NCBI RefSeq assembly: GCF_900188435.1
Contig: NZ_FYFA01000001.1
Span: 1,860,001 to 1,924,000, forward strand
DNA from: Marinobacter sp. es.048
GTDB taxonomy: Bacteria; Pseudomonadota; Gammaproteobacteria; Pseudomonadales; Oleiphilaceae
DNA length: 64,000 nucleotides
Reading direction: 5' to 3'
Positions within the stretch are counted from its first letter, which is position 1. The number at the start of each line of letters is the position of its first letter. The notes below the pieces were generated by a model. That model did not search any database and was not told the DNA's origin. It saw only the letters and a program-made list of their open reading frames with translations. Shown in pieces: positions 2 to 38,333 of this stretch. The translations under genes and the position numbers were made by a program.

Positions 2-1129
2 CAGGGTAGCCTGGCCAGTGTCAGCGCCACCGACCTGGGCGCACTCACCATCACCGAAGCCGTAAAACGCGCCGGCCTGCAGCCTGCGGATGTGCAGGAA
101 GTCATCATGGGCAACGTCCTGCCTGCCGGCCTCAAACAAGGCCCGGCACGCCAGGCCATGCGCAAGGCGGGGCTGCCTGATAACACCGGCGCCACCACCA
201 TCAACAAACTCTGCGGCTCCGGCATGAAAGCCGCCATGTTTGCTCACGACCTCATCAAAGCGGGCAGCAACGACATCATGGTTGCCGGTGGCATGGAGAG
301 CATGTCCAACGCACCCTATATCCTGCAGGGCGTCCGTAGCGGCTACCGCATGGGACCGGGCCAGGCACCCCAGGATCACATGTTCCTGGACGGCCTGGAA
401 GACGCCGAAACCGGTCGCCTGATGGGTGCCTTTGCTCAGGAAATGGCTGACAAGAAAGGCTACACCCGGGAAGAAATGGACGAGTACGCCATCACTTCAC
501 TCACACGGGCCAAGAAAGCCATTGAAACGGGCCTGTTGAAAGACGAAATCGTCCCGGTAACCGTGAAAGGCCGCAAAGGCGACGTGGTCGTCGAGGACGA
601 CGAGCAGCCCCACAACGCTAACATCGAAAAGATCCCGAGCCTGCGCCCGGCCTTTGCCAAAGACGGCACCGTTACCGCTGCTAACGCGTCTTCAATCTCC
701 GACGGCGCCTCCGCGCTGCTCCTGATGCGCGAATCCGAAGCCGAAAAACGCGGCCTCAAACCCCTGGCCCGCATCGTTGGCCATAGTACCCAATCCCAGC
801 ATCCGTCCGAGTTCACCTGCGCCCCGGTTGGCGCCATCGAAAAGCTGTTCGGCAAAACCGGATGGAGCAAAGACGACGTAGACCTCTTCGAGATTAACGA
901 AGCCTTCGCCATGGTCGCCATGATGCCCATCCGCGAACTCGGCCTGAACCCCGAGAAAGTCAACATCCACGGCGGCGCCTGTGCCCAGGGTCACCCGGTC
1001 GGTTCCACCGGCTCCCGTCTGCTGGTAACCCTTATGTACGCTCTCCAGCGTTACGGCAAAAAGAAGGGCATTGCAGCCCTTTGCATTGGTGGTGGGGAAG
1101 CTACTGCCATGGCTATTGAGATGCTTTGA
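2..1129 (+). CDS. Acetyl-CoA C-acetyltransferase (thiolase), 5'-truncated
   Basis: Thiolase family enzyme that condenses two acetyl-CoA or cleaves acetoacetyl-CoA in the cytoplasm. The open frame runs in from the window edge at base 2, so about 375 residues are visible and roughly 15-20 N-terminal residues are missing compared with the usual ~392. The acylated cysteine is in the NKLCGSG motif (codon at 212-214). The NEAFA block, the catalytic histidine in GGACAQGHPVG and the C-terminal CIGGGEA block with the second cysteine follow in the expected order. An internal GTG at 92 is not the true start because conserved thiolase sequence continues upstream. The length and motifs fit a biosynthetic acetoacetyl-CoA thiolase (AtoB/PhaA type), but a beta-oxidation role cannot be excluded from sequence. 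The downstream neighbour is a repeat element, not an operon partner. Confidence 0.93.
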   Translation, partial: QGSLASVSATDLGALTITEAVKRAGLQPADVQEVIMGNVLPAGLKQGPARQAMRKAGLPDNTGATTINKLCGSGMKAAMFAHDLIKAGSNDIMVAGGMESMSNAPYILQGVRSGYRMGPGQAPQDHMFLDGLEDAETGRLMGAFAQEMADKKGYTREEMDEYAITSLTRAKKAIETGLLKDEIVPVTVKGRKGDVVVEDDEQPHNANIEKIPSLRPAFAKDGTVTAANASSISDGASALLLMRESEAEKRGLKPLARIVGHSTQSQHPSEFTCAPVGAIEKLFGKTGWSKDDVDLFEINEAFAMVAMMPIRELGLNPEKVNIHGGACAQGHPVGSTGSRLLVTLMYALQRYGKKKGIAALCIGGGEATAMAIEML

Positions 1130-26461: not shown

Positions 26462-26551
26462 AGAGGCGTCCTTCTGGTTCTTTGTTAAGAGAATGTTACT
26501 ATTACCTATCATAGTTCATAACGTTTTGATCTGAAGCAGGAATCGCATCGC

Positions 26552-27328
26552 ATGCATTACAGCTCCATCCTTCCGGATGTCATCAAGGTAGCAGACGAGG
26601 CCAGCGAGAAAGTGCTGCATATCTATCAGTCAGACTTCAAAGTGAACTACAAAGCAGACGATTCGCCCATCACAGCTGCAGACACCGCCGCCCACGACAT
26701 CATCACCCGTGGGCTGCGCAGAATTAGCCGGGATATCCCTATCCTTTCGGAGGAGGGCAACGATATCCCTTGGGAAGAGCGCAAGCACTGGCGCCGGTTC
26801 TGGCTGGTGGACCCCGTCGACGGTACCAAGGACTTCACACAGCGCACAGGGGAGTTCACTGTGAACATCGCCATGATTGAGGACGGTGAGCCAGTTATGG
26901 GTGTGGTCATTGCTCCTGCTTTGAAGGAAGCCTACTGGGGTGTGGTCGGTGAGGGCGCCCATATGCGTGATCGCACAGGCAAAGTTCACAGAATTCGGGT
27001 GGCGGAGCCCAAAGACGTAAAGCGTGTTGTGGCCAGCAAAAATCACCTTAACCCGGAAACCAGAGCGTTTATCGATAAGCTCGGAGAGCACGAACTTGTG
27101 CAGGCTGGCAGCTCGTTAAAGTTTTGTCGCATAGCCGAGGGGCACGCAGATATATACCCACGTATGGGACCCACCTGTGAGTGGGACACAGGCGCAGCAC
27201 AGGCTGTGCTGGCGGCGGCCGGTGGGAAAGTTCAAACGGTGGATGGCAAACCTCTGAAATACGGTAAACAAGATGTGTTAAATCCGTATTTCGTTGCGGC
27301 AGGAAGCTGGTACCTTCCGCAGCCATGA
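26552..27328 (+). CDS. cysQ: 3'(2'),5'-bisphosphate nucleotidase CysQ
   Basis: A 258-residue inositol-monophosphatase-superfamily enzyme that removes the 3'-phosphate of PAP/PAPS and so recycles a sulfate-assimilation by-product. Metal-site residues are in the SEEGND block and the DPVDGTKDF signature; the WDTGAAQAVL block binds substrate. Length and motif order are normal. Its stop overlaps the rfaH start (ATGA), so cysQ and rfaH are one translational unit. Confidence 0.93.
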   Translation: MHYSSILPDVIKVADEASEKVLHIYQSDFKVNYKADDSPITAADTAAHDIITRGLRRISRDIPILSEEGNDIPWEERKHWRRFWLVDPVDGTKDFTQRTGEFTVNIAMIEDGEPVMGVVIAPALKEAYWGVVGEGAHMRDRTGKVHRIRVAEPKDVKRVVASKNHLNPETRAFIDKLGEHELVQAGSSLKFCRIAEGHADIYPRMGPTCEWDTGAAQAVLAAAGGKVQTVDGKPLKYGKQDVLNPYFVAAGSWYLPQP

Positions 27329-27804
27329 CATGGTTCGCACTTCAGCACAAGCCCGCCCAGGGCGACCGAGCCCTTACACATCTCCAGAATCAGGATATCG
27401 CCTGCTTCTACCCGAAAATTACAGTGGAGAAAATCAAGGCCGGCAAGCGTACAAAGAAGCTTGAGCCGCTATTTCCCGGTTACTTGTTCGTGAACCTGGA
27501 ACAATCGGATCCTGTTTGGGCAAAGCTGCGCTCTACTCGCGGTGTGCTCAGGATTGTGGGTTTTGCCAACAAGCCTGCAGCTATAAGTGATGATGTAATC
27601 ATGCACATAAAGAAAAGCTTGGATTCAGTTGCAGAGCAGGGCGGCATCAAACCCGGCCAGGCTGTGCAATTGAACGACGGGCCATTTGAAGGTATCAATG
27701 CCATTTTTCAGGCATACGACGGTGAGGCGCGTGCAATAGTGCTGATCAACTTCATGCAGAAGCAGCAGAGGGTAAAGGTTCCGGTCTCGGCTTTAAAAAA
27801 CTGA
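27325..27804 (+). CDS. rfaH: Transcription antitermination factor RfaH
   Basis: A 159-residue NusG paralogue with an N-terminal NGN domain (FALQHKPAQGDRALTHL opening; PLFPGYLFVNL core at about 48-60) and a C-terminal KOW domain (about 108-159). The C-terminal MQKQQRVKVPVSAL is typical of RfaH rather than NusG, and the length is that of RfaH (E. coli 162). RfaH loads at ops elements, suppresses pausing and Rho termination across long surface-glycan operons, and recruits ribosomes through S10. Here an exact ops lies 1.1 kb downstream within the first codons of wzi, making the neighbouring locus its obvious target. Confidence 0.92.
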   Translation: MTWFALQHKPAQGDRALTHLQNQDIACFYPKITVEKIKAGKRTKKLEPLFPGYLFVNLEQSDPVWAKLRSTRGVLRIVGFANKPAAISDDVIMHIKKSLDSVAEQGGIKPGQAVQLNDGPFEGINAIFQAYDGEARAIVLINFMQKQQRVKVPVSALKN

Positions 27805-27895
27805 AGATACTATCGCGCGCGGAACTGACTCGCAGCTCCAATCTCAGGCTGTAGTCGGTGTGCAGCCACAATAATTAGAGGAAAGATGAATTAAT

Positions 27896-28654
27896 ATGGA
27901 AGAACGACAGCGCTCCGTTAAACACGCCCATGACGATGAAATCAGCCTTGTAGACCTGGCTTCAACTTTTTTGAAGCGCCGTCGAATTTTCTACGTTGTT
28001 TTTCTGGTTACCCTTGCGGCGGGTGTCCTGTACGCGACTCTAATGCCAGAGAAGTATGATTACGTTAGCTTGTTAAAGCTGGCGGAGAAGGAAACAGGGA
28101 GCTTCATCGAGAAGCCGGCCTCTGTGATAGCCACACTCGAGAATCGCTGGTTTCCTGAGATTGAGGCCGCTTACCTCGCCGAGCACGATCAGCCGCTTCC
28201 TTTCGAAGTGAGCTTTTCGAATCCCGAGAATACGGGACTCATTCGCATTGTCTCTGAAGCCAAGCCGGCAGGGTCTGAGGGCGTTAAGCAGATTCACGCT
28301 GCACTCATTGAGAATCTGGAGCAGACCCAATCGATTGCGGTATCTACCCTTAAAAGTAACCTGGAAAGACAAATCGAATCTTTGACCTCAACCATTGACA
28401 GGTTGGAAGGCTCTCAGGACGTGGGAGCGGCGATAGCTGACGCAGTGAATAAGCGGCTGTCCCTTGAAGTGCTTCTCCTTTCAATTCAACCGGCAGAACT
28501 TCTGGTGCTCAACCGCCAAATGGCAGAAAGGAAGGGCCCCGCGAGGAGCCTGATTGTTGTTTTGGCTGCCATGCTGGGTTTAATGGGCGGTATATTTATT
28601 TCGTTTTTAGCTGAATTTGTAAGCTTGGTAAGAGCCAACCTGAATGAAATATAG
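27896..28654 (+). CDS. Wzz/chain-length-determinant family protein
   Basis: A 252-residue polysaccharide co-polymerase of the Wzz type. TM1 is at about residues 33-52, a periplasmic region spans ~53-215, and TM2 is at about 222-242 with the Pro/Gly-rich end (GLMGGIF). The short periplasmic domain, with a coiled-coil segment (NLERQIESLTSTIDRLEG), is smaller than classical Wzz. GAGGAAAG precedes the start; a two-codon mini-frame (ATG AAT TAA, 27886-27894) sits just before it. It lies 91 bases after rfaH and 220 bases before the ops-bearing wzi, so it probably belongs to the cysQ-rfaH unit rather than to the RfaH-dependent operon. Confidence 0.82.
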   Translation: MEERQRSVKHAHDDEISLVDLASTFLKRRRIFYVVFLVTLAAGVLYATLMPEKYDYVSLLKLAEKETGSFIEKPASVIATLENRWFPEIEAAYLAEHDQPLPFEVSFSNPENTGLIRIVSEAKPAGSEGVKQIHAALIENLEQTQSIAVSTLKSNLERQIESLTSTIDRLEGSQDVGAAIADAVNKRLSLEVLLLSIQPAELLVLNRQMAERKGPARSLIVVLAAMLGLMGGIFISFLAEFVSLVRANLNEI

Positions 28655-28874
28655 GCGATAAGGTTGAGGTTCCGAACCTTTAACAAATCTTTACCTCCAT
28701 AACCCTCTGATAACCAATGTGGCAGACTTTTTGTCACTTGCTTGTCATAGGCATTGCCGTAAAATCTTCACGCTTCTGAAACAGTTCATTCATCTACCGA
28801 CAAGGATGCAGTTGGGAGTCAGTTGTCCCCTTCCTTTTGTCTGTTTCCTGTCATTTGTCAGATAATCCAATCTT

Positions 28875-30356
28875 ATGACCTTAAAACACTGGGCCCTGGT
28901 CGGTGGGGCGGTAGCGTGTCTGACAAGTTTGTCTGTCTCGGCGGCCCCCTGGCTGGAGCCGGGTGATTCGAGGGCGAGATTTGCGGCCCAGAAACTGGCA
29001 GACCGCGGCCATATGGACCGCACTATCAGCACCTGGCCAATAATGTGGAATACGGTCCACAGTGGGCTGGAGGACAGCGTCAGTTTCGATCAGACCTCGG
29101 TGGGCTCCGCTGCCGCCTACCTGCGCTTTGAGAAGGAACAGCAGGCTCAACAGGGCAGGCGGGGCGAGTACAGCCTGTATGGCAGCAGCGAGATTCCCGG
29201 AGTGCGCGGTTTTGATCAGAATCCACTTGCGAAAGCCGGAACGGCAATCAATCTCCAGTGGCAAGGGGAAGTCTGGGCTCTAGGACTTAAGCCTTCATAC
29301 GCCCATCAGAGCGATGACGACGAAGAGCTTCGCCTGGATGGCAGCTACTTGGCAGCGGCCGCAGGAAACTGGGTGTTGGGCGCTGGAGCTATTGACCGTT
29401 GGTGGGGGCCCGGCTGGCAGTCCAGCCTCATTCTCTCCAACAACGCCCGCCCAATGCCGGCGCTTTGGATTAATCGGAAAAACACCCACGCCTTTGAAAC
29501 CCCATGGTTAAACTGGATCGGCCCGTGGCAGTTCACAGCACTTGCCGGCCAGTATGAAAGTGATCGTGCGGTACCCGATGCCAAAATGGTCGGAATGCGT
29601 TTTACGTTCCGCCCAATGAATGGCTTGGATATAGGTCTTTCCCGCGCGATCATGTTTGGCGGAGCAGGGCGGCCGGAAGGCTCATCCACCATCTGGAACG
29701 CCCTGATCGGCCGCGATAACGGACAGCTCGAAGAGAACGACCCGGGCAACCAGCTCGCCAGCATCGATGCCCGTTATGGATTTGCAATTGGCCAGCAGTC
29801 CATGGGTCTTTACGTCCAGATGATGGGCGAAGACGAAGCCGGAGCCTTCCCAGCCCGCAAATCCTGGCTCTTCGGTACGGACTGGACCACGCAGCTCTTT
29901 GCCGCAGACCAGCAGTGGTTTATTGAATACACCAACACCTTGGCGGATGACTTTCTGGGCGATGCCATACCTAACATTACCTATGACCATTTCCGTTACC
30001 GCTCTGGCTACCGCTATTACGGGCGTAGTATGGCAGCCAGCTTCGACGGCGACGCAGAAGCCGTTACCATTGGCGCCCTGAACTTCTTCGACAACGGCGC
30101 CAATCTGACTGCAAAGGTGACATACGCCAGGCTGAACAAAGATGGTGCAAGCCGCACGGTTGTGACTGATGAGGACATCTTTTATAACGTACCCGAGGGT
30201 GACCAAAACGTCGCTATTCTTGATTTCGGATACGGCAGTCGCTTCTTGAATGGCTGGCTGGATTTGAACTTCCAGGCAACCGAAAAGAAAATCCAGTACT
30301 TGGGTGGCGAGAAAGAGCAATGGTCTGTGGGAGCCACCTGGATCTACCGATTCTAA
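28875..30356 (+). CDS. wzi: Capsule assembly Wzi family outer-membrane protein
   Basis: A 493-residue protein with a signal peptide (residues 1-23, ending SVSA-AP) and a Wzi-like barrel (about 25-493) rich in aromatic strands and ending in WIYRF. Wzi proteins anchor capsule or exopolysaccharide at the cell surface. The ATG at 28875 is the only start compatible with the signal peptide (the frame is closed by TAA just upstream). No Shine-Dalgarno is visible in the 20 bases before it, and GATAAT at 28861-28866 with a weak TTGTCT 18 bases upstream could even be a promoter giving an almost leaderless message. The ops element sits at codons 11-15. It is the first gene of the long locus; the SLBB export gene follows after 33 bases. 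Confidence 0.9.
   Translation: MTLKHWALVGGAVACLTSLSVSAAPWLEPGDSRARFAAQKLADRGHMDRTISTWPIMWNTVHSGLEDSVSFDQTSVGSAAAYLRFEKEQQAQQGRRGEYSLYGSSEIPGVRGFDQNPLAKAGTAINLQWQGEVWALGLKPSYAHQSDDDEELRLDGSYLAAAAGNWVLGAGAIDRWWGPGWQSSLILSNNARPMPALWINRKNTHAFETPWLNWIGPWQFTALAGQYESDRAVPDAKMVGMRFTFRPMNGLDIGLSRAIMFGGAGRPEGSSTIWNALIGRDNGQLEENDPGNQLASIDARYGFAIGQQSMGLYVQMMGEDEAGAFPARKSWLFGTDWTTQLFAADQQWFIEYTNTLADDFLGDAIPNITYDHFRYRSGYRYYGRSMAASFDGDAEAVTIGALNFFDNGANLTAKVTYARLNKDGASRTVVTDEDIFYNVPEGDQNVAILDFGYGSRFLNGWLDLNFQATEKKIQYLGGEKEQWSVGATWIYRF
28907..28918 (+). promoter_or_regulatory. ops element (RfaH recruitment site) inside wzi
   Basis: GGCGGTAGCGTG matches the core ops element 12 of 12. It starts 33 bases into the wzi frame and encodes part of the signal peptide (GAVAC region). 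A purine/G-rich tract precedes it, as in JUMPstart sequences. The location within coding DNA is unusual, since E. coli ops sites lie in untranslated leaders. The rfaH gene itself is 1.1 kb upstream. Confidence 0.9.
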
Positions 30357-30389
30357 ATTTTACCGAACCAAACCGCCGGATTTATACCT

Positions 30390-33089
30390 GTGAAGCTTAA
30401 GAACCTATTGCTCCCATTGGCTCTTCTGCTGCCAATGGCCGCGACTGCCCAGTCCATCAGTCCTGCCCAGATTGAGCAGTTCAAGAACCTGCCCAAAGCC
30501 CAGCAAGAGGCCCTGGCCCGGCAGTACGGTATAGACCTTGATGGCTTACAGGGTCGCAGTCAGAGCCAGCAGCGCCCTGAAAATGTTGATGTTGTTGAAC
30601 CTCAACAAGGCAGTGGGGGTGACAACCAACGGAGGATGCAACAAGAACAGGAAGAGCTACAAAAAGAGGAAGAACAGGCCCGTAAAAACGGGGGCCTGAA
30701 ACCCTTCGGATATGACCTTTTTGCGGGTAGCCCCACCACCTTTGCTCCGGTAACGGAAATTCCGGTTCCCAACAACTACACCCTTGGTCCCGGTGATGTG
30801 CTTCGCGTCCAATTGTGGGGCAAAGAGAATCGACAGCTTGAGCTGCCAGTCAGCCGCGATGGCTCTATCAGCTTCCCGAATTCCGGCCCTCTCAGCGTTG
30901 CAGGCCTGAGCTTCGATGAAGCCCGGCAACAGATTCGCAAACGGGTCTCCGAGCAATACATCGGCGTGGAGGCCAGTGTTTCTCTCGGCGAATTGCGCAG
31001 CATGCGAGTCTTCGTTCTCGGCGAAGCCCGAAATCCAGGCTCTTACACCGTGAGCTCTCTGTCCACTATAACCAACGCCCTGTATGTTTCAGGCGGCGTA
31101 AAACAGTCCGGATCTTTGCGTGCCGTTCAGCATAAGCGCAACGGCAAGCTTATCGCTACTCTGGATCTGTATGACCTGCTTCTCAAGGGTGACAGCTCTG
31201 GCGACAACCGCCTTCAGCCCGGGGATGTTATTTTCATTCCACCGATTGGCAACCGGGCAGGCATTGATGGCGAAGTATACCGGCCCGCCCTTTACGAACT
31301 GGAAGACAAAACCAGCCTCAAAGAACTGGTACGCCTGGCTGGGGGACTTACACCCCAGGCTTACCCGGAGCGTGTAAAAATTGAGCGCACCAACGAAGAC
31401 TTTCTGAGAATCATCGCCGAAGCGGACTACACGGAGCAGAAGGGGCGGCGTGCTCGGGTTTTGCCGGGGGACCGCATTACCATAGCCTCTATTGCCAACA
31501 TCACCGGTCAGTATGTAGAAATCCGTGGCGCAGCCACCCGCCCTGGGCGCTATGCGTTCATAGCCGGCATGAGGGTGTCATCGGTTCTCAAGAACCTGCG
31601 CAACGACCTACTGCCTGCGGCAGATCGCGATGTAGCTCTTCTCGTAAGAGAGTCCGCGGATGATCAGCTGAGCACTCAGGTGATTGATCTGCGCAGTGCC
31701 CTTCGTAACCCTGGCAGTTCAGCGGACCTCATCTTTGAGGAGAGGGACCAACTATTGGTGTTTTCTGATCTCGAGAAAACAGAGCTCGATGAAAGGGCTC
31801 TGAGATACGAGGAATATCAAGATTTGCGGGAGCGCCTGGCGAAAGGTGAGCGGATTTCGAAACCGTCCGAGCGCCAGCTGGCGGATCTGCGCCCCCAACA
31901 ACGGGAAGAACTCCAGCAAAACTATGAGGAGCGCCGTTGGCTTGCCATGCTGGAGCGAGAGCAACTAACTGAAAGTGAACAGGACGAGCTCCGGCAGCTG
32001 CAGGACGCAAAGCGAGAGAAACTACTGCCAGGGCTGCTGAAGCAGTTGCGCATTCAGGCAACGCCTCTTGAACCTGCCTCTTTTGTCACCATATCCGGCG
32101 AGGTTCGCTACCCGGGTGAATACCCTATCCCGGAAAACGGCGGGCTTGCCGATGTGATTGCTCTTGCTGGAGGGCTGAAAGATTCAGCATCTCTACTTAC
32201 GGCGGAGTTGGCCAGATCGGAGCTCACAGAAGAGGGCGACCGCAGAGTGATCACCCGCCAGATTGCGTTAGCGGAAGCAATGACAGGCGAGACCCGGCAA
32301 TTGCTCCAGAGCCGTGATGCCATCTTGATCCAGCCAACGCCGGATTTTGACAAACAATACCGAATCACGCTTTCCGGTGAAGTGCGCTACCCCGGAGAGT
32401 ACACCTTCGGTGAAGGCGAAACTCTGAGGGACGTTATTGTTCGTGCTGGTGGTCTGACCGAAAACGCTTTCCCCAAAGGGGCGGTATTTACCCGCCAGAA
32501 ACTTCGACAGTTGGAGGCCCAGCGCCTGCAGGAGGCAGAGGAGCGCCTCCAAGGGGATCTTCTAGGGGTGCAGCTTCAAGGTGACAGCTTCGGTGGTCAG
32601 AATGCTCAGCGGGTCCAACAGGTTCAGGGCTTACTGGAAGACGTCCAGAACAGCCGACCTGTAGGCCGCATGGTGATCGACCTTGCTGCCGTCATGCAGG
32701 ATCAAGATTATCAGAGCATTCGCTTGCAGGATGGCGATACCTTGAACGTTCCCAACATACCGCAGTCGGTTTCCGTGTTCGGGGAGGTACAGTTCCCGAC
32801 CAGTCATTTGCACCAAGCAGGCCTGACCGTGGATGACTACCTTGAGCGCTCTGGGGGCCCGACTCGCCAGGCGGATGACAGCAGAGTGTACGTTGTGAAG
32901 GCGGACGGCTCTGTGATGCTGCCGGAGCAAAGCCGTTGGTTTGGTGGCCGTAGCCAGCAACTGGAACCGGGGGACACGATCATCATGCCGATTGATGTGG
33001 ACCGCCTGAATCAGTTGGAGTTGTGGAGCAACGTCAGCCAGATTGTTTACCAGATGGCGCTGGGTGCAGCAGCAGTGGGGAATTTGTGA
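30390..33089 (+). CDS. Large SLBB-domain polysaccharide export protein (Wza-like)
   Basis: An 899-residue exported protein: signal peptide residues 1-20, then a Gln-rich linker and a charged coil to about 110. A Poly_export domain (about 125-205, PNNYTLGPGDVLRVQLWG) is followed by several SLBB domains, seen as repeated V-x-G-E-V/A-R-x-P-G-x-Y blocks at about residues 210, 370, 570, 660 and 810. Helical, Glu/Gln/Arg-rich inserts separate some of them (about 460-555 and 700-745). It is far larger than E. coli Wza (379) and resembles the WbfF-type proteins of Vibrio and Shewanella surface-polysaccharide loci. The GTG start is used, with a weak ribosome-binding site. The stop overlaps the next start (TGATG). 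Confidence 0.88.
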   Translation: MKLKNLLLPLALLLPMAATAQSISPAQIEQFKNLPKAQQEALARQYGIDLDGLQGRSQSQQRPENVDVVEPQQGSGGDNQRRMQQEQEELQKEEEQARKNGGLKPFGYDLFAGSPTTFAPVTEIPVPNNYTLGPGDVLRVQLWGKENRQLELPVSRDGSISFPNSGPLSVAGLSFDEARQQIRKRVSEQYIGVEASVSLGELRSMRVFVLGEARNPGSYTVSSLSTITNALYVSGGVKQSGSLRAVQHKRNGKLIATLDLYDLLLKGDSSGDNRLQPGDVIFIPPIGNRAGIDGEVYRPALYELEDKTSLKELVRLAGGLTPQAYPERVKIERTNEDFLRIIAEADYTEQKGRRARVLPGDRITIASIANITGQYVEIRGAATRPGRYAFIAGMRVSSVLKNLRNDLLPAADRDVALLVRESADDQLSTQVIDLRSALRNPGSSADLIFEERDQLLVFSDLEKTELDERALRYEEYQDLRERLAKGERISKPSERQLADLRPQQREELQQNYEERRWLAMLEREQLTESEQDELRQLQDAKREKLLPGLLKQLRIQATPLEPASFVTISGEVRYPGEYPIPENGGLADVIALAGGLKDSASLLTAELARSELTEEGDRRVITRQIALAEAMTGETRQLLQSRDAILIQPTPDFDKQYRITLSGEVRYPGEYTFGEGETLRDVIVRAGGLTENAFPKGAVFTRQKLRQLEAQRLQEAEERLQGDLLGVQLQGDSFGGQNAQRVQQVQGLLEDVQNSRPVGRMVIDLAAVMQDQDYQSIRLQDGDTLNVPNIPQSVSVFGEVQFPTSHLHQAGLTVDDYLERSGGPTRQADDSRVYVVKADGSVMLPEQSRWFGGRSQQLEPGDTIIMPIDVDRLNQLELWSNVSQIVYQMALGAAAVGNL

Positions 33090-35391: not shown

Positions 35392-36552
35392 ATGATTCCC
35401 TACGGTCGGCAAGACATCACTGAAGAAGATATCAAGGCGGTTGTGGAAGTGCTGACTTCCACACACCTGACCCAAGGCCCCGCCGTTCCCAAGTTTGAGC
35501 AAGCCGTTATCAGGCACTGTAATGCCAAACACGCTGTCGCAACCAATAGCGCCACTTCAGCACTTCACATAGCCTGCCTTGCGCTTGGTTTGGGGCCTGG
35601 TGACTGGTTATGGACAAGCCCGAATACCTTTGTGGCTTCGGCGAATTGTGGCCTTTACTGTGGAGCGAAGGTCGATTTTGTGGATATAGACCCCCGGACC
35701 TACAACCTTTGCCCGAAGGCGCTGGAAGACAAACTACAGGTCGCGGAGAGGAACGGAAACCTGCCCAAAGTAGTTGTTCCCGTCCATTTTAGCGGTCAGC
35801 CTTGCGATATGAGGTCGGTCCACGAGCTTTCAAAAAAATACGGGTTTAGAATCATCGAAGATGCCTCCCATGCGATTGGGGGGAAATATCTGAATGAGCC
35901 CATAGGCAATTGTCGTTACAGTGACATTACGGTGTTCAGTTTCCACCCAGTCAAAATTGTCACCTCTGCAGAGGGCGGCATGGCAGTTACGAACAACGAT
36001 AAGCTTGCCGAGAAGGTAGCACTGTTACGAAGCCATGGAATCACCCGCACCCCCAGTTTGATGACAAAGCCCATGGAAGGCTCCTGGTATTATCAGCAGG
36101 TTGACCTGGGGTTCAATTACCGCATGACGGACCTTCAAGGGGCTCTTGGCGCCAGCCAGATGGGGCGGCTTGTGCATTACGTTGCGCGCAGGCATGAGCT
36201 GGCGAAACGATACGACAAACTCCTGAAAGACTTGCCAGTCGTTACTCCCTGGCAGGATAAAAATGGCTATTCTGCTTTCCATCTGTACGTGATCCGTTTG
36301 AAGCTTGGCGAGATTAACACCTCTCACGTGGATGTATTTGAAGCTCTGCGCGCAAAGGAGATTATCGTCAATCTCCATTATATTCCGGTGCACACCCAAC
36401 CCTATTACCGGGAAATGGGTTTCAGTGATGGCGACTTCCCGGAATCCGAAAAGTATTACTCTGAAGCCATCAGTATTCCCCTTTTCCCGGCGCTGACATA
36501 CGACGAACAGGACTTCGTGGTAGAGTCGCTTAAGGAAGCTATGGGCTTATGA
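35392..36552 (+). CDS. pseC: UDP-4-amino-4,6-dideoxy-N-acetyl-beta-L-altrosamine transaminase PseC
   Basis: A 386-residue PLP aminotransferase of the DegT/DnrJ/EryC1 family. It converts UDP-2-acetamido-2,6-dideoxy-L-arabino-hexos-4-ulose to the 4-amino sugar, using Glu as donor. The Schiff-base lysine is in FHPVKIVTSAEGG, and NSATSALHIA and EDASHAIG bind PLP. The length is normal. It is followed directly by pseF, pseG and pseI, which supports the Pse assignment over generic DegT. No pseB precedes it, which is unusual. Confidence 0.92.
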   Translation: MIPYGRQDITEEDIKAVVEVLTSTHLTQGPAVPKFEQAVIRHCNAKHAVATNSATSALHIACLALGLGPGDWLWTSPNTFVASANCGLYCGAKVDFVDIDPRTYNLCPKALEDKLQVAERNGNLPKVVVPVHFSGQPCDMRSVHELSKKYGFRIIEDASHAIGGKYLNEPIGNCRYSDITVFSFHPVKIVTSAEGGMAVTNNDKLAEKVALLRSHGITRTPSLMTKPMEGSWYYQQVDLGFNYRMTDLQGALGASQMGRLVHYVARRHELAKRYDKLLKDLPVVTPWQDKNGYSAFHLYVIRLKLGEINTSHVDVFEALRAKEIIVNLHYIPVHTQPYYREMGFSDGDFPESEKYYSEAISIPLFPALTYDEQDFVVESLKEAMGL

Positions 36553-37241
36553 TCGTTGCGGTTATTCCAGCACGAGGTGGCAGCAAGCGCATACCTCGTA
36601 AAAACATCAAAGAGTTTTGTGGCAAACCGATGATCGCTTGGTCTATAGAGGCCGCAAAGGAGAGTGGGTGTTTTAACAGGATAGTTGTATCCACAGACGA
36701 TGAAGAGATTGCAGAAGTTGCGAGAGCCTGGGGCGCATGGGTTCCTTTTATGCGACCGCACGAGTTATCAGATGACTACACTGGAACTTTGCCAGTAATT
36801 CGAAATGCCGTGGACTGGATTAATCAGAACGACTCGCAGGTAAAATATGCATGCTGTCTTTATGCAACCGCGCCTTTCGTTTCACCTGAGGACCTCCAAC
36901 GCGGCTACAGCCTGCTCAAGCAAGAATCTGCAAGCTTTGCTTTTTCGGTGACCAACTACGCCTTTCCAATCCAAAGAGCCATTCGGATCACGGAGAGTGG
37001 ACGGGTGGCCATGTTCAATCCTGAGCACTTTAATTCTCGTTCCCAAGATCTGGAAGAGGCATGGCATGATGCGGGCCAGTTCTATTGGGGAACCAAAGAG
37101 GCGTGGATGGAAGAGCAGACGTTGTTTAACGAAAGAGCTGTCCCAGTAAAGCTCCCAAGACATCGGGTTCAGGACATCGATACCCATGAGGACTGGGTGC
37201 GAGCTGAGTGGATGTTCCGTGCCATGAAGAGTAAAGAATAA
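36549..37241 (+). CDS. pseF: Pseudaminic acid cytidylyltransferase PseF
   Basis: A 230-residue CMP-sugar synthase that couples Pse to CTP. The CTP-binding PARGGSKRIPRKN motif is at residues 6-18; the GTLPVIRNAVDW and HDAGQFYW blocks (catalytic Asp) follow. Overlaps pseC by 4 bases (ATGA). Confidence 0.94.
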   Translation: MIVAVIPARGGSKRIPRKNIKEFCGKPMIAWSIEAAKESGCFNRIVVSTDDEEIAEVARAWGAWVPFMRPHELSDDYTGTLPVIRNAVDWINQNDSQVKYACCLYATAPFVSPEDLQRGYSLLKQESASFAFSVTNYAFPIQRAIRITESGRVAMFNPEHFNSRSQDLEEAWHDAGQFYWGTKEAWMEEQTLFNERAVPVKLPRHRVQDIDTHEDWVRAEWMFRAMKSKE

Positions 37242-37244
37242 CGA

Positions 37245-38333
37245 ATGAGAATTGTCTTCCGGGCAGATGCCTCAATTCAGATGGGAACTGGCCACGTGAT
37301 GCGCTGTATAGCGTTGGCTGACGAATTGAAACGCCAAGGGCATGAGTGTCGTTTCATTTGCCGTGAGCACCCTGGGCACTTGGGCAAGTTCATCGCGGAA
37401 AAAGGTTTTGAGCTTAGTCTACTGCAGAGTGAACATTCGCCTCCCCTCAAGATTGATGCTAACCGGCACGCTGAATGGCTTGGTGTTAGCTGGGAGGTGG
37501 ATGCTATGCAAAGTCAGGCTATCCTGGGCATGATAGATGCTGACTGGCTAGTTGTAGATCACTATGCACTGGATGACTTGTGGGAGAGGCAGGTAAGCCC
37601 TTTGGTTGGCAAAGTTATGGCTATTGATGACTTAGCTGACCGAAAACACCATGTGGACGTGCTTCTTGATCAGAACTTGGGTAGATCTAACATTGACTAC
37701 GAAGGGCTGCTCCCCAAGTACTGTATTCGATTGATCGGTCCTCGTTACGCGCTACTCAGGCCAGAGTTTTCTGGTGCCAGAGAATGCAGCTTACATCGTA
37801 GGAGGAAGGCAGGGTTGGGCCGAATTCTCATATCGATGGGTGGAATGGATACCCCCAATACAACATCTTCGATTTTGAAGAGTCTACAGCATTCAGATTT
37901 ACCATCTGAGCTCAATCTTGATGTAATAATGGGCTCTGCCGCACCAGGGCTGGATGAAGTTCGTTATTTATCGGAAATATCCCGTTTCAATACCAGTGTG
38001 AGTACAGACGTTCGCAATATGGCTGAGCGTATGTGCCTGGCTGATTTATCCATCGGTGCTGCAGGGAGCACATCCTGGGAGCGCTGCGTTCTCGGGCTTC
38101 CATCAATTGCAGTTGCCCTGGCGCATAACCAGTCAGCAATACTGGAAGCCCTACATAGTGCAGGGGCTGCTGAAAAACTTGGCTACCCGTTCGATGAGTT
38201 GGACCTGATTGATGCTGTGAACCGTTTTCACAAAGAACCCGAAACTCTGGAGGCAATGACGGAGAGAGCGTCAAGAGTGTGTGATGGGAAGGGTGTAGAT
38301 AGAGTGTTGGAGTGGTTAAATGTTAAGAAGTGA
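37245..38333 (+). CDS. pseG: UDP-2,4-diacetamido-2,4,6-trideoxy-beta-L-altropyranose hydrolase PseG
   Basis: A 362-residue GT-B-like hydrolase that releases UDP from the 2,4-diamino sugar before condensation with PEP. The MGTGHVMRCIALADEL opening contains the catalytic His region, and ISMGGMDTPNTT plus GAAGSTSWERC are the nucleotide-binding blocks. Normal length. Overlaps the next gene by 14 bases. Confidence 0.93.
   Translation: MRIVFRADASIQMGTGHVMRCIALADELKRQGHECRFICREHPGHLGKFIAEKGFELSLLQSEHSPPLKIDANRHAEWLGVSWEVDAMQSQAILGMIDADWLVVDHYALDDLWERQVSPLVGKVMAIDDLADRKHHVDVLLDQNLGRSNIDYEGLLPKYCIRLIGPRYALLRPEFSGARECSLHRRRKAGLGRILISMGGMDTPNTTSSILKSLQHSDLPSELNLDVIMGSAAPGLDEVRYLSEISRFNTSVSTDVRNMAERMCLADLSIGAAGSTSWERCVLGLPSIAVALAHNQSAILEALHSAGAAEKLGYPFDELDLIDAVNRFHKEPETLEAMTERASRVCDGKGVDRVLEWLNVKK

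Follow-up and report, generated by a model that had tools for sequence, protein, structure and literature searches.

The ops element of Escherichia coli is a transcriptional pause site that recruits RfaH, which also binds ribosomal protein S10 and activates translation (PMC6391919, PMC11001881, PMC7819879). According to the model given in these reports, the ribosome is caught, by scanning, in the stretch from ops to a start codon that may lie as much as 100 nt downstream. The E. coli start codon is described as lying 'within 100 nts downstream' of ops (PMC11001881), and the element as untranslated and 'upstream of the first ORF' (open reading frame; PMC7819879); in two E. coli records that share the same gene, we counted 74 nt between ops and the annotated rfbB start. 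Here we describe an ops element that is read as codons of wzi, the first gene of a capsule operon, in a 64,000-nt stretch of the Marinobacter sp. es.048 genome (contig NZ_FYFA01000001.1, positions 1,860,001 to 1,924,000, forward strand; hereafter the window).

Like the E. coli JUMPstart leaders of the rfb and waaQ operons, this locus combines an exact ops, GGCGGTAGCGTG, and a G-rich stretch directly before it with RfaH and a long surface-polysaccharide operon, and its first gene lacks a ribosome-binding site, as stated for E. coli in PMC6358824 and PMC7819879. Unlike in those leaders, the start codon is located upstream of ops, which falls in codons 11-15 of the wzi frame; since ops does not lie in an untranslated leader, we regard the locus as a variant and not as a standard JUMPstart leader. 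A search of the literature returned no report of ops within a coding sequence, which is weak evidence of absence. The translated leader pauses of trp and his operons share with our locus a short translated stretch, a pause and a possible hairpin before the pause site; here, in contrast, no regulatory codons were seen (a terminator switch was not searched for) and an RfaH site is included. The NusG paralogs UpxY and LoaP are likewise specialised and encoded beside polysaccharide operons; the window protein, however, passes the RfaH profile (NCBIfam TIGR01955, 159.6 bits, cut-off 144.5) and scores far lower against UpxY (76.1 bits) and LoaP (67.5 bits), in each case under the cut-off. On balance, we lean towards the reading that an RfaH-loading module of the JUMPstart/ops type has been built into the first ORF of the operon, where RfaH loaded at ops would bring a ribosome to the upstream AUG in addition to its role in anti-termination.

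The ops element within the wzi frame

A preliminary description of the window had reported a complete ops core within the coding frame of wzi, and both points are borne out: the match is exact, it begins 32 nt past the A of the start codon (+33..44), and the frame is the same throughout. It is the sole exact copy in the window. The whole genome holds two; the second lies antisense inside an unrelated ORF and was rejected as a chance match. ATG 28875 is the only ATG, GTG or TTG start of the wzi frame upstream of ops, because an in-frame TAA is located four codons before it, and a start downstream of ops would, in our own reading, leave the signal sequence too short.

To compare this region among relatives, wzi was sought by protein search, not by motif, in 124 genomes of the genus, 78 of which had a match. 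At the same codon position, ops was exact in 71 of the 72 starts with this N-terminus, counts that are not independent because the compared rows share ancestry; the exception was genome G123 (locus L082). The 72 starts include a locus outside the genus set (L059), a leader locus (L086), two YjbH fusions (L107, L108) and a contig-edge piece (L106), and they exclude L045 (no N-terminus), L051 (outside the genus set), and L085 and L087-L092 (wzi genes whose N-terminus differs and which are not at the element). As L086, L106, L107 and L108 were found only via residues that include the block described below, the count from fully independent loci is 67 of 68. Two wzi frames are interrupted while the stretch from the start codon to ops is intact (L093 in G066, L099 in G051). 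Genome G123 keeps rfaH and an untranslated ops ahead of its wzz-like gene, which makes it a natural comparison for the coding ops. A contig filed as Rhodopirellula sp. MED697 (L051) carries a Marinobacter-like locus with wzi 85% identical and is probably mis-binned. In G109, wzi and rfaH occur twice with equal scores, at ~8-12 kb from both ends of a single 4.4-Mb contig (L063 and G109:C1:4424151), which is probably an assembly overlap.

Conservation is not confined to ops. Columns are nearly completely conserved from the A of the start codon to +48, except columns 4, 8, 12, 19 and 21, with sharp edges at -1 and +49 and diverged sequence on both flanks. The preliminary description was right about the ops itself but not about the extent of the element, which is a 48-nt block that starts with the ATG. 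The encoded residues, MTxKHWxLVGGAVACL, are conserved too, as would be expected if the block were kept for a needed piece of signal peptide. However, its synonymous sites are frozen: in 58 of 64 reading frames (those >470 codons; partial, broken or non-wzi frames were left out), pairs with an identical residue used the same codon at a frequency of 0.89 in codons 2-16 versus 0.44 in the 414 other wzi codons. The 113 positions outside the block with >95% residue conservation averaged 0.47, and the 14 best 5-codon windows of wzi all overlapped the block; single codons outside it reached 0.92, but 5-codon windows clear of it never exceeded 0.64. Constraint on the protein only was therefore rejected, and the codon comparison indicates that constraint acts on the DNA rather than only on the peptide. 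The need for these residues is also contradicted by the fusion of the block to non-homologous proteins and by the occurrence of ops with its upstream box in untranslated form, before wzz and, in a sister genus, before yjbH (see below), and we find this explanation scarcely credible.

Taken together, the existence of a genuine coding ops, paired with a start codon that has no Shine-Dalgarno sequence, is strongly supported by these comparisons and by those of the next section.

The start codon and its upstream region

The absence of a ribosome-binding site before ATG 28875, noted in the preliminary description, was confirmed by a duplex energy of +0.4 kcal/mol. It also extends to related loci. 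Among 77 first genes of the same type in the genus (class I, defined below), a Shine-Dalgarno-like 4-mer was present in 3%, the value obtained with shuffled sequences (3%), as against 31% of 48 rfaH starts from the fetched loci, 29% of 17 wzz starts of class II and 29% of 21 other ORFs of the window.

Further upstream, the alignment points to a promoter of the capsule operon, with transcription expected to start near position 28772. The promoter-like signal GTA[AG]AAT was found in 66 of 87 class I leaders at -131..-101 (median -111) and in no shuffled sequence, and the TTGTCACTTG box in 41 of 87. The wzi transcript is probably not leaderless, because the conserved -10 element predicts a 5' untranslated region (UTR) of ~100 nt. 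A leaderless transcript from the promoter-like GATAAT beside the ATG (28861-28866) was considered and rejected: only some close relatives share this site, and the conserved -10 lies ~100 nt upstream.

The predicted 5' UTR also contains a CsrA/RsmA-like site, GACAAGGAT; the consensus of such sites is RUACARGGAUGU. The pattern ACA[AG]GGA occurs in 57 of 87 class I leaders, always at -79..-58, and in 1 of 26 class II leaders. As it is typical of class I, it suggests a second, translational control through this putative site. A further GGGA is located beside it in the predicted capsule leader of the window (28799-28817).

A module shared by different first genes

A scan of the 124 genomes with GGTCGGTGGGGCGGTAGCGTG, allowing up to 3 mismatches, gave matches in 99, and 98 had a classifiable element (the match in G095 was set aside as chance). 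We assign to class I those elements whose ops begins 32 nt past the A of the start codon and whose frame is open through ops, and to class II those without a start codon or with in-frame stops, in which the gene starts after ops. This assignment starts from loci that hold ops and hence measures context, not ops conservation. By judgement, matches without the upstream box or a suitable operon start were not counted as elements (L156, L188, L191, L237-L242, L244, L247, L249-L252, L254).

Class I was found in 85 of the 98 genomes. In 76 of these it is an in-frame fusion with wzi or a YjbH-like protein, and in the others it is a short leader ORF. The 78 fused elements, one of them from another genus, comprise 67 wzi and 11 YjbH-like genes (blastp); for one of the fused proteins, Pfam PF06082 confirmed the assignment to YjbH, and Marinobacter proteins in public records that share this N-terminus or have a related one carry the name YjbH domain-containing protein. 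All but one (77/78) start with ATG at the beginning of the block; in G018 this codon is TTG, and an ATG stands one codon before it. Nine genomes of the genus have leader ORFs, 16-42 codons long, which start with ATG in seven and with TTG in two. The genes that follow are those of WcaJ-like sugar transferases, of Wza or others, and in WcaJ-type loci the leader ORF overlaps the start of the gene after it. G066 carries wzi with an interrupted frame, hence it is not among these nine. Three further elements before other genes resemble class I with a leader frame that closes early or has no start codon (L117 in G121, L154 in G006, L159 in G040), and they may represent decay or intermediates between the classes. 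Class II was found in 25 genomes, 14 of which also carry class I; the class II gene is wzz-like in 13 of these 14. Class II loci have the same ops and upstream box as class I, but in the wzz-like loci (n=17) the gene ATG follows ops at a median distance of 39 nt; ops is not exact in two class II copies (L185, L192). Judged by these contexts, the element is a module and not a feature of wzi. The preliminary description had treated it as a case of one gene: ops is indeed in wzi, but the module also heads YjbH genes and short leader ORFs, and it extends to other genera of the family. In our own reading, the encoded peptide may also provide Wzi or YjbH with the beginning of the signal sequence.

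The presence of one block at the head of several different first genes could have arisen if a short tract had recently spread by horizontal transfer or gene conversion, giving identity but no function. Capsule loci recombine often. This explanation, however, needs repeated swaps of 48 nt between diverged flanks, given that wzi identity falls to ~45% while the block stays intact, and we consider it very improbable.

Another possibility is that ops serves elongation only, loading RfaH against Rho-dependent polarity over the length of the operon, while the AUG is translated by an ordinary Shine-Dalgarno-independent route with pyrimidine-rich sequence upstream, its place being incidental. Consistent with this, the region directly 5' of the AUG is T-rich, and class II loci of the genus have ops with the gene start downstream, so that the AUG-first order is not needed for ops. 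On the other hand, the conserved block begins exactly at the start codon, nearly all class I starts lack a Shine-Dalgarno sequence, and a start codon is kept in the nine leader-ORF loci, where no structural gene needs one, although recent descent may account for the latter. We regard this explanation as unlikely, yet it deserves to be taken seriously.

Distribution beyond the genus

Within the family, GGGGCGGTAGCGTG was found in 108 of 163 genomes, eight of them outside the genus, and elements of the present type occur in five of these eight (G144, G136, G161, G149 and G152). In G144 the element is fused to wzi. In G136, wza is preceded by a leader of 18 aa, and the opposite strand carries an untranslated ops, 10 nt ahead of a MarR_EPS gene; the regulator (L236) matches TIGR04176 with 155.7 bits (cut-off 88), and its ops, on the + strand, is of the canonical untranslated type and is not included in the class assignment given above. 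In this locus (L236 2007-2333) the untranslated ops and the coding-leader ops before wza are divergent, ~320 bp apart. The element is untranslated in G161, of a sister genus, where the yjbH ATG follows ops by 20 nt, and in G149 and G152, before wzz. Because the G161 element is untranslated while Marinobacter has YjbH fusions, yjbH stands in canonical order in one genus and is fused to the element in another. The remaining out-of-genus matches (G137, G140, G160 and four G144 sites) were set aside, as their contexts differ.

At the level of the order, the pattern from start codon to ops, with up to 2 mismatches, matched 13 of 390 genomes, all among the 16 sampled from the genus, and none of the 374 others. 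The coding form is also present in L059, from a record titled 'Proteobacteria bacterium 005FR1'.

Two other contexts of GGGGCGGTAGCGTG were noticed. One reads about CCAGGGATTGGGTGTCAGGTA-CCGG, with up to four sites per genome and no obvious long gene after it (L240, L241, L242 and L244 in G144, L252 in G063, L247 in G160); it could be another ops class or a repeat. In the other, GGGGCGGTAGCGTG is preceded by ACGCTGATTGGACGGTGACTAAAGTCCGCC in G140 (L239) and by a close variant in G137 (L237).

RfaH and its co-occurrence with the element

The preliminary description placed a cognate rfaH 1.1 kb upstream, in agreement with our finding that a gene whose product passes TIGR01955 ends ~1.07 kb ahead of the wzi ATG. 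With E up to 1e-20, rfaH was found in 99 of the 124 genomes of the genus. Both rfaH and the element are present in 97, the element only in one (G064, 62% complete), rfaH only in two (G088, G097) and neither in 24 (Fisher p 3e-22, kinship ignored); element-free refers to the sensitivity of the scan, at which a more diverged element would be missed, and five rfaH-less genomes were assigned by elimination. In many loci rfaH is directly upstream, or with wzz between, and among those examined it is divergent in two genomes (L068, L075).

Residues K10, H20, R23 and R73 of E. coli RfaH are described as contacting ops, R23 directly (PMC5995543). In E. coli numbering, the window protein keeps K10, R16, H20, Q24 and R73 and has N at position 23. 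Across 54 genomes, the residues that face ops are kept in part: K10, R16 and Q24 in all 54, R73 in 52, H20 in 43 and R23 in one.

Organisation of the capsule locus

The genes of the window are ordered cysQ, rfaH, a wzz-like gene, a 220-bp gap, wzi, an export gene and sugar-nucleotide genes (Table 1). At the position of the wzz-like gene, some relatives have such a gene and others do not. The operon includes pseC, pseF and pseG (window 35392-38333), which suggests a capsule with pseudaminic acid. A search of named records with the wzi protein gave nine loci, seven of them from Marinobacter.

Table 1. Features of the capsule locus in the window
Feature	Position	Strand	Basis
rfaH, cognate NusG paralog	27325..27804	+	NCBIfam TIGR01955 above cut-off; PDB RfaH relatives
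wzz-like chain-length gene, between rfaH and operon start	27896..28654	+	Pfam PF02706
Predicted capsule-operon promoter: TTGTCACTTG box 28731-28740, possible -35 TTGCTT 28738-28743 (overlapping), -10 TAAAAT 28760-28765	28731..28765	+	Upstream alignment
CsrA/RsmA-like site GACAAGGAT in predicted 5' UTR	28799..28807	+	ACA[AG]GGA in class I leaders
Conserved 48-nt coding block (class I element), codons 1-16, MTLKHWALVGGAVACL	28875..28922	+	Conservation profile, codon test
wzi, capsule assembly protein, first gene of the operon	28875..30356	+	Pfam PF14052
Possible RNA hairpin CACTGG-N7-TCGGTG, ending one base before ops	28887..28905	+	Pairing across elements
ops element GGCGGTAGCGTG, codons 11-15 of wzi	28907..28918	+	Exact match
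Polysaccharide export protein (Poly_export, SLBB), start codon GTG, next after wzi	30390..33089	+	Pfam

A possible hairpin before ops

The segment directly before ops may form a short RNA hairpin. Its pairs are formed in 92.1% of cells (72 distinct elements), as compared with 90.1% in shuffles, and two-sided changes were found at four of six pairs (1.7 in shuffles; 11 of 500 shuffles reach four). Slid versions of the hairpin pair in at most 65.5%. This possible hairpin would end ~12 nt before the pause site and brings to mind a checkpoint of the trp/his kind, in which a pioneer ribosome starting at the AUG would run, after about ten codons, into the polymerase paused at ops, melt the hairpin and release the polymerase, so that only translated transcripts continue, RfaH being loaded during the pause. 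The two-sided changes and the leader ORFs of 16-42 codons before genes with their own start are in line with such a checkpoint, and a cited reference bears a title on the release of a paused complex by translation. Nevertheless, the block holds no regulatory codon run on direct reading, and the support for the hairpin is moderate only; we therefore consider the checkpoint improbable.

Proposed mechanism

Published pauses at ops fall on a U and on the second base after it, a C (PMC2871177), and a delay is described at positions 12/13 (PMC5995543). By matching letters to these published pauses, we set the pause of the Marinobacter element at ops positions 11-13. At this expected pause, the A of the AUG is 42-44 nt behind the RNA 3' end (40-42 nt counted from the last base of the AUG). 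The distance between active centres in NusG-bridged ribosome-polymerase complexes is given as 41-47 nt (PMC10953045), so that, with this near agreement, ribosome and polymerase could be bridged directly from codon 1 onwards.

The preliminary description proposed that RfaH could act on wzi translation in addition to elongation, which agrees with this anatomy and with the E. coli literature and is plausible. It did not remark that the start codon precedes ops, opposite to the order in the published scanning model. In the mechanism that we envisage, transcription would begin ~100 nt upstream, and RNA polymerase would synthesise the AUG and ~40 further nt before pausing at ops. RfaH made from the neighbouring gene would then bind the non-template strand, open, and stay on until the end of the operon. 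Since the AUG would have emerged by the time of the ops pause, the ribosome-binding domain of RfaH could, through S10, deliver or hold a ribosome on this upstream AUG, instead of having it scan downstream. A more specific proposal is a reversed-order system: an ops module with its own start codon at a fixed distance, at which RfaH would place the ribosome onto the AUG behind it, bridged from codon 1, without scanning and without a Shine-Dalgarno sequence. At least two unrelated genes for outer-membrane proteins would have acquired this cassette, which would give them the start of the signal peptide, and so would free-standing leader peptides. We put this forward tentatively and, at present, lean slightly against it.

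Several observations weigh against RfaH-mediated delivery to the upstream AUG. The near-fixed spacing in rows of shared ancestry could be inherited rather than selected. In the leader-ORF loci, the structural gene has its own start downstream of the ops core, in the canonical order, and in G123, a wzi-first genome, the ops in wzi has been lost while the wzi frame is open. As for RfaH, N replaces R23 in 51 of the 54 genomes and H20 in 11, and none of the 54 keeps T68 or N70. Ops-independent, constitutively active RfaH proteins that lack some ops-binding residues and are encoded beside their own operons are described in PMC13015549; as the window rfaH is also beside its operon, dependence on ops is not assured. 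With regard to RNA structure, RNAalifold chose a fold other than the hairpin, and the window element, as a single sequence, folds no better than shuffles (z +0.87). Rfam gave no match in 26500-31500 at E up to 1 and none across the window at the gathering score.

The arrangement in Marinobacter, with the AUG upstream of ops at a near-fixed spacing and canonical copies in 14 of the same genomes, may serve as a natural test of ribosome recruitment by RfaH, as it would let direct delivery be told from scanning and from pure anti-termination. It would also be a case of a regulatory DNA element that lies under a reading frame and is used as the start of unrelated exported proteins.
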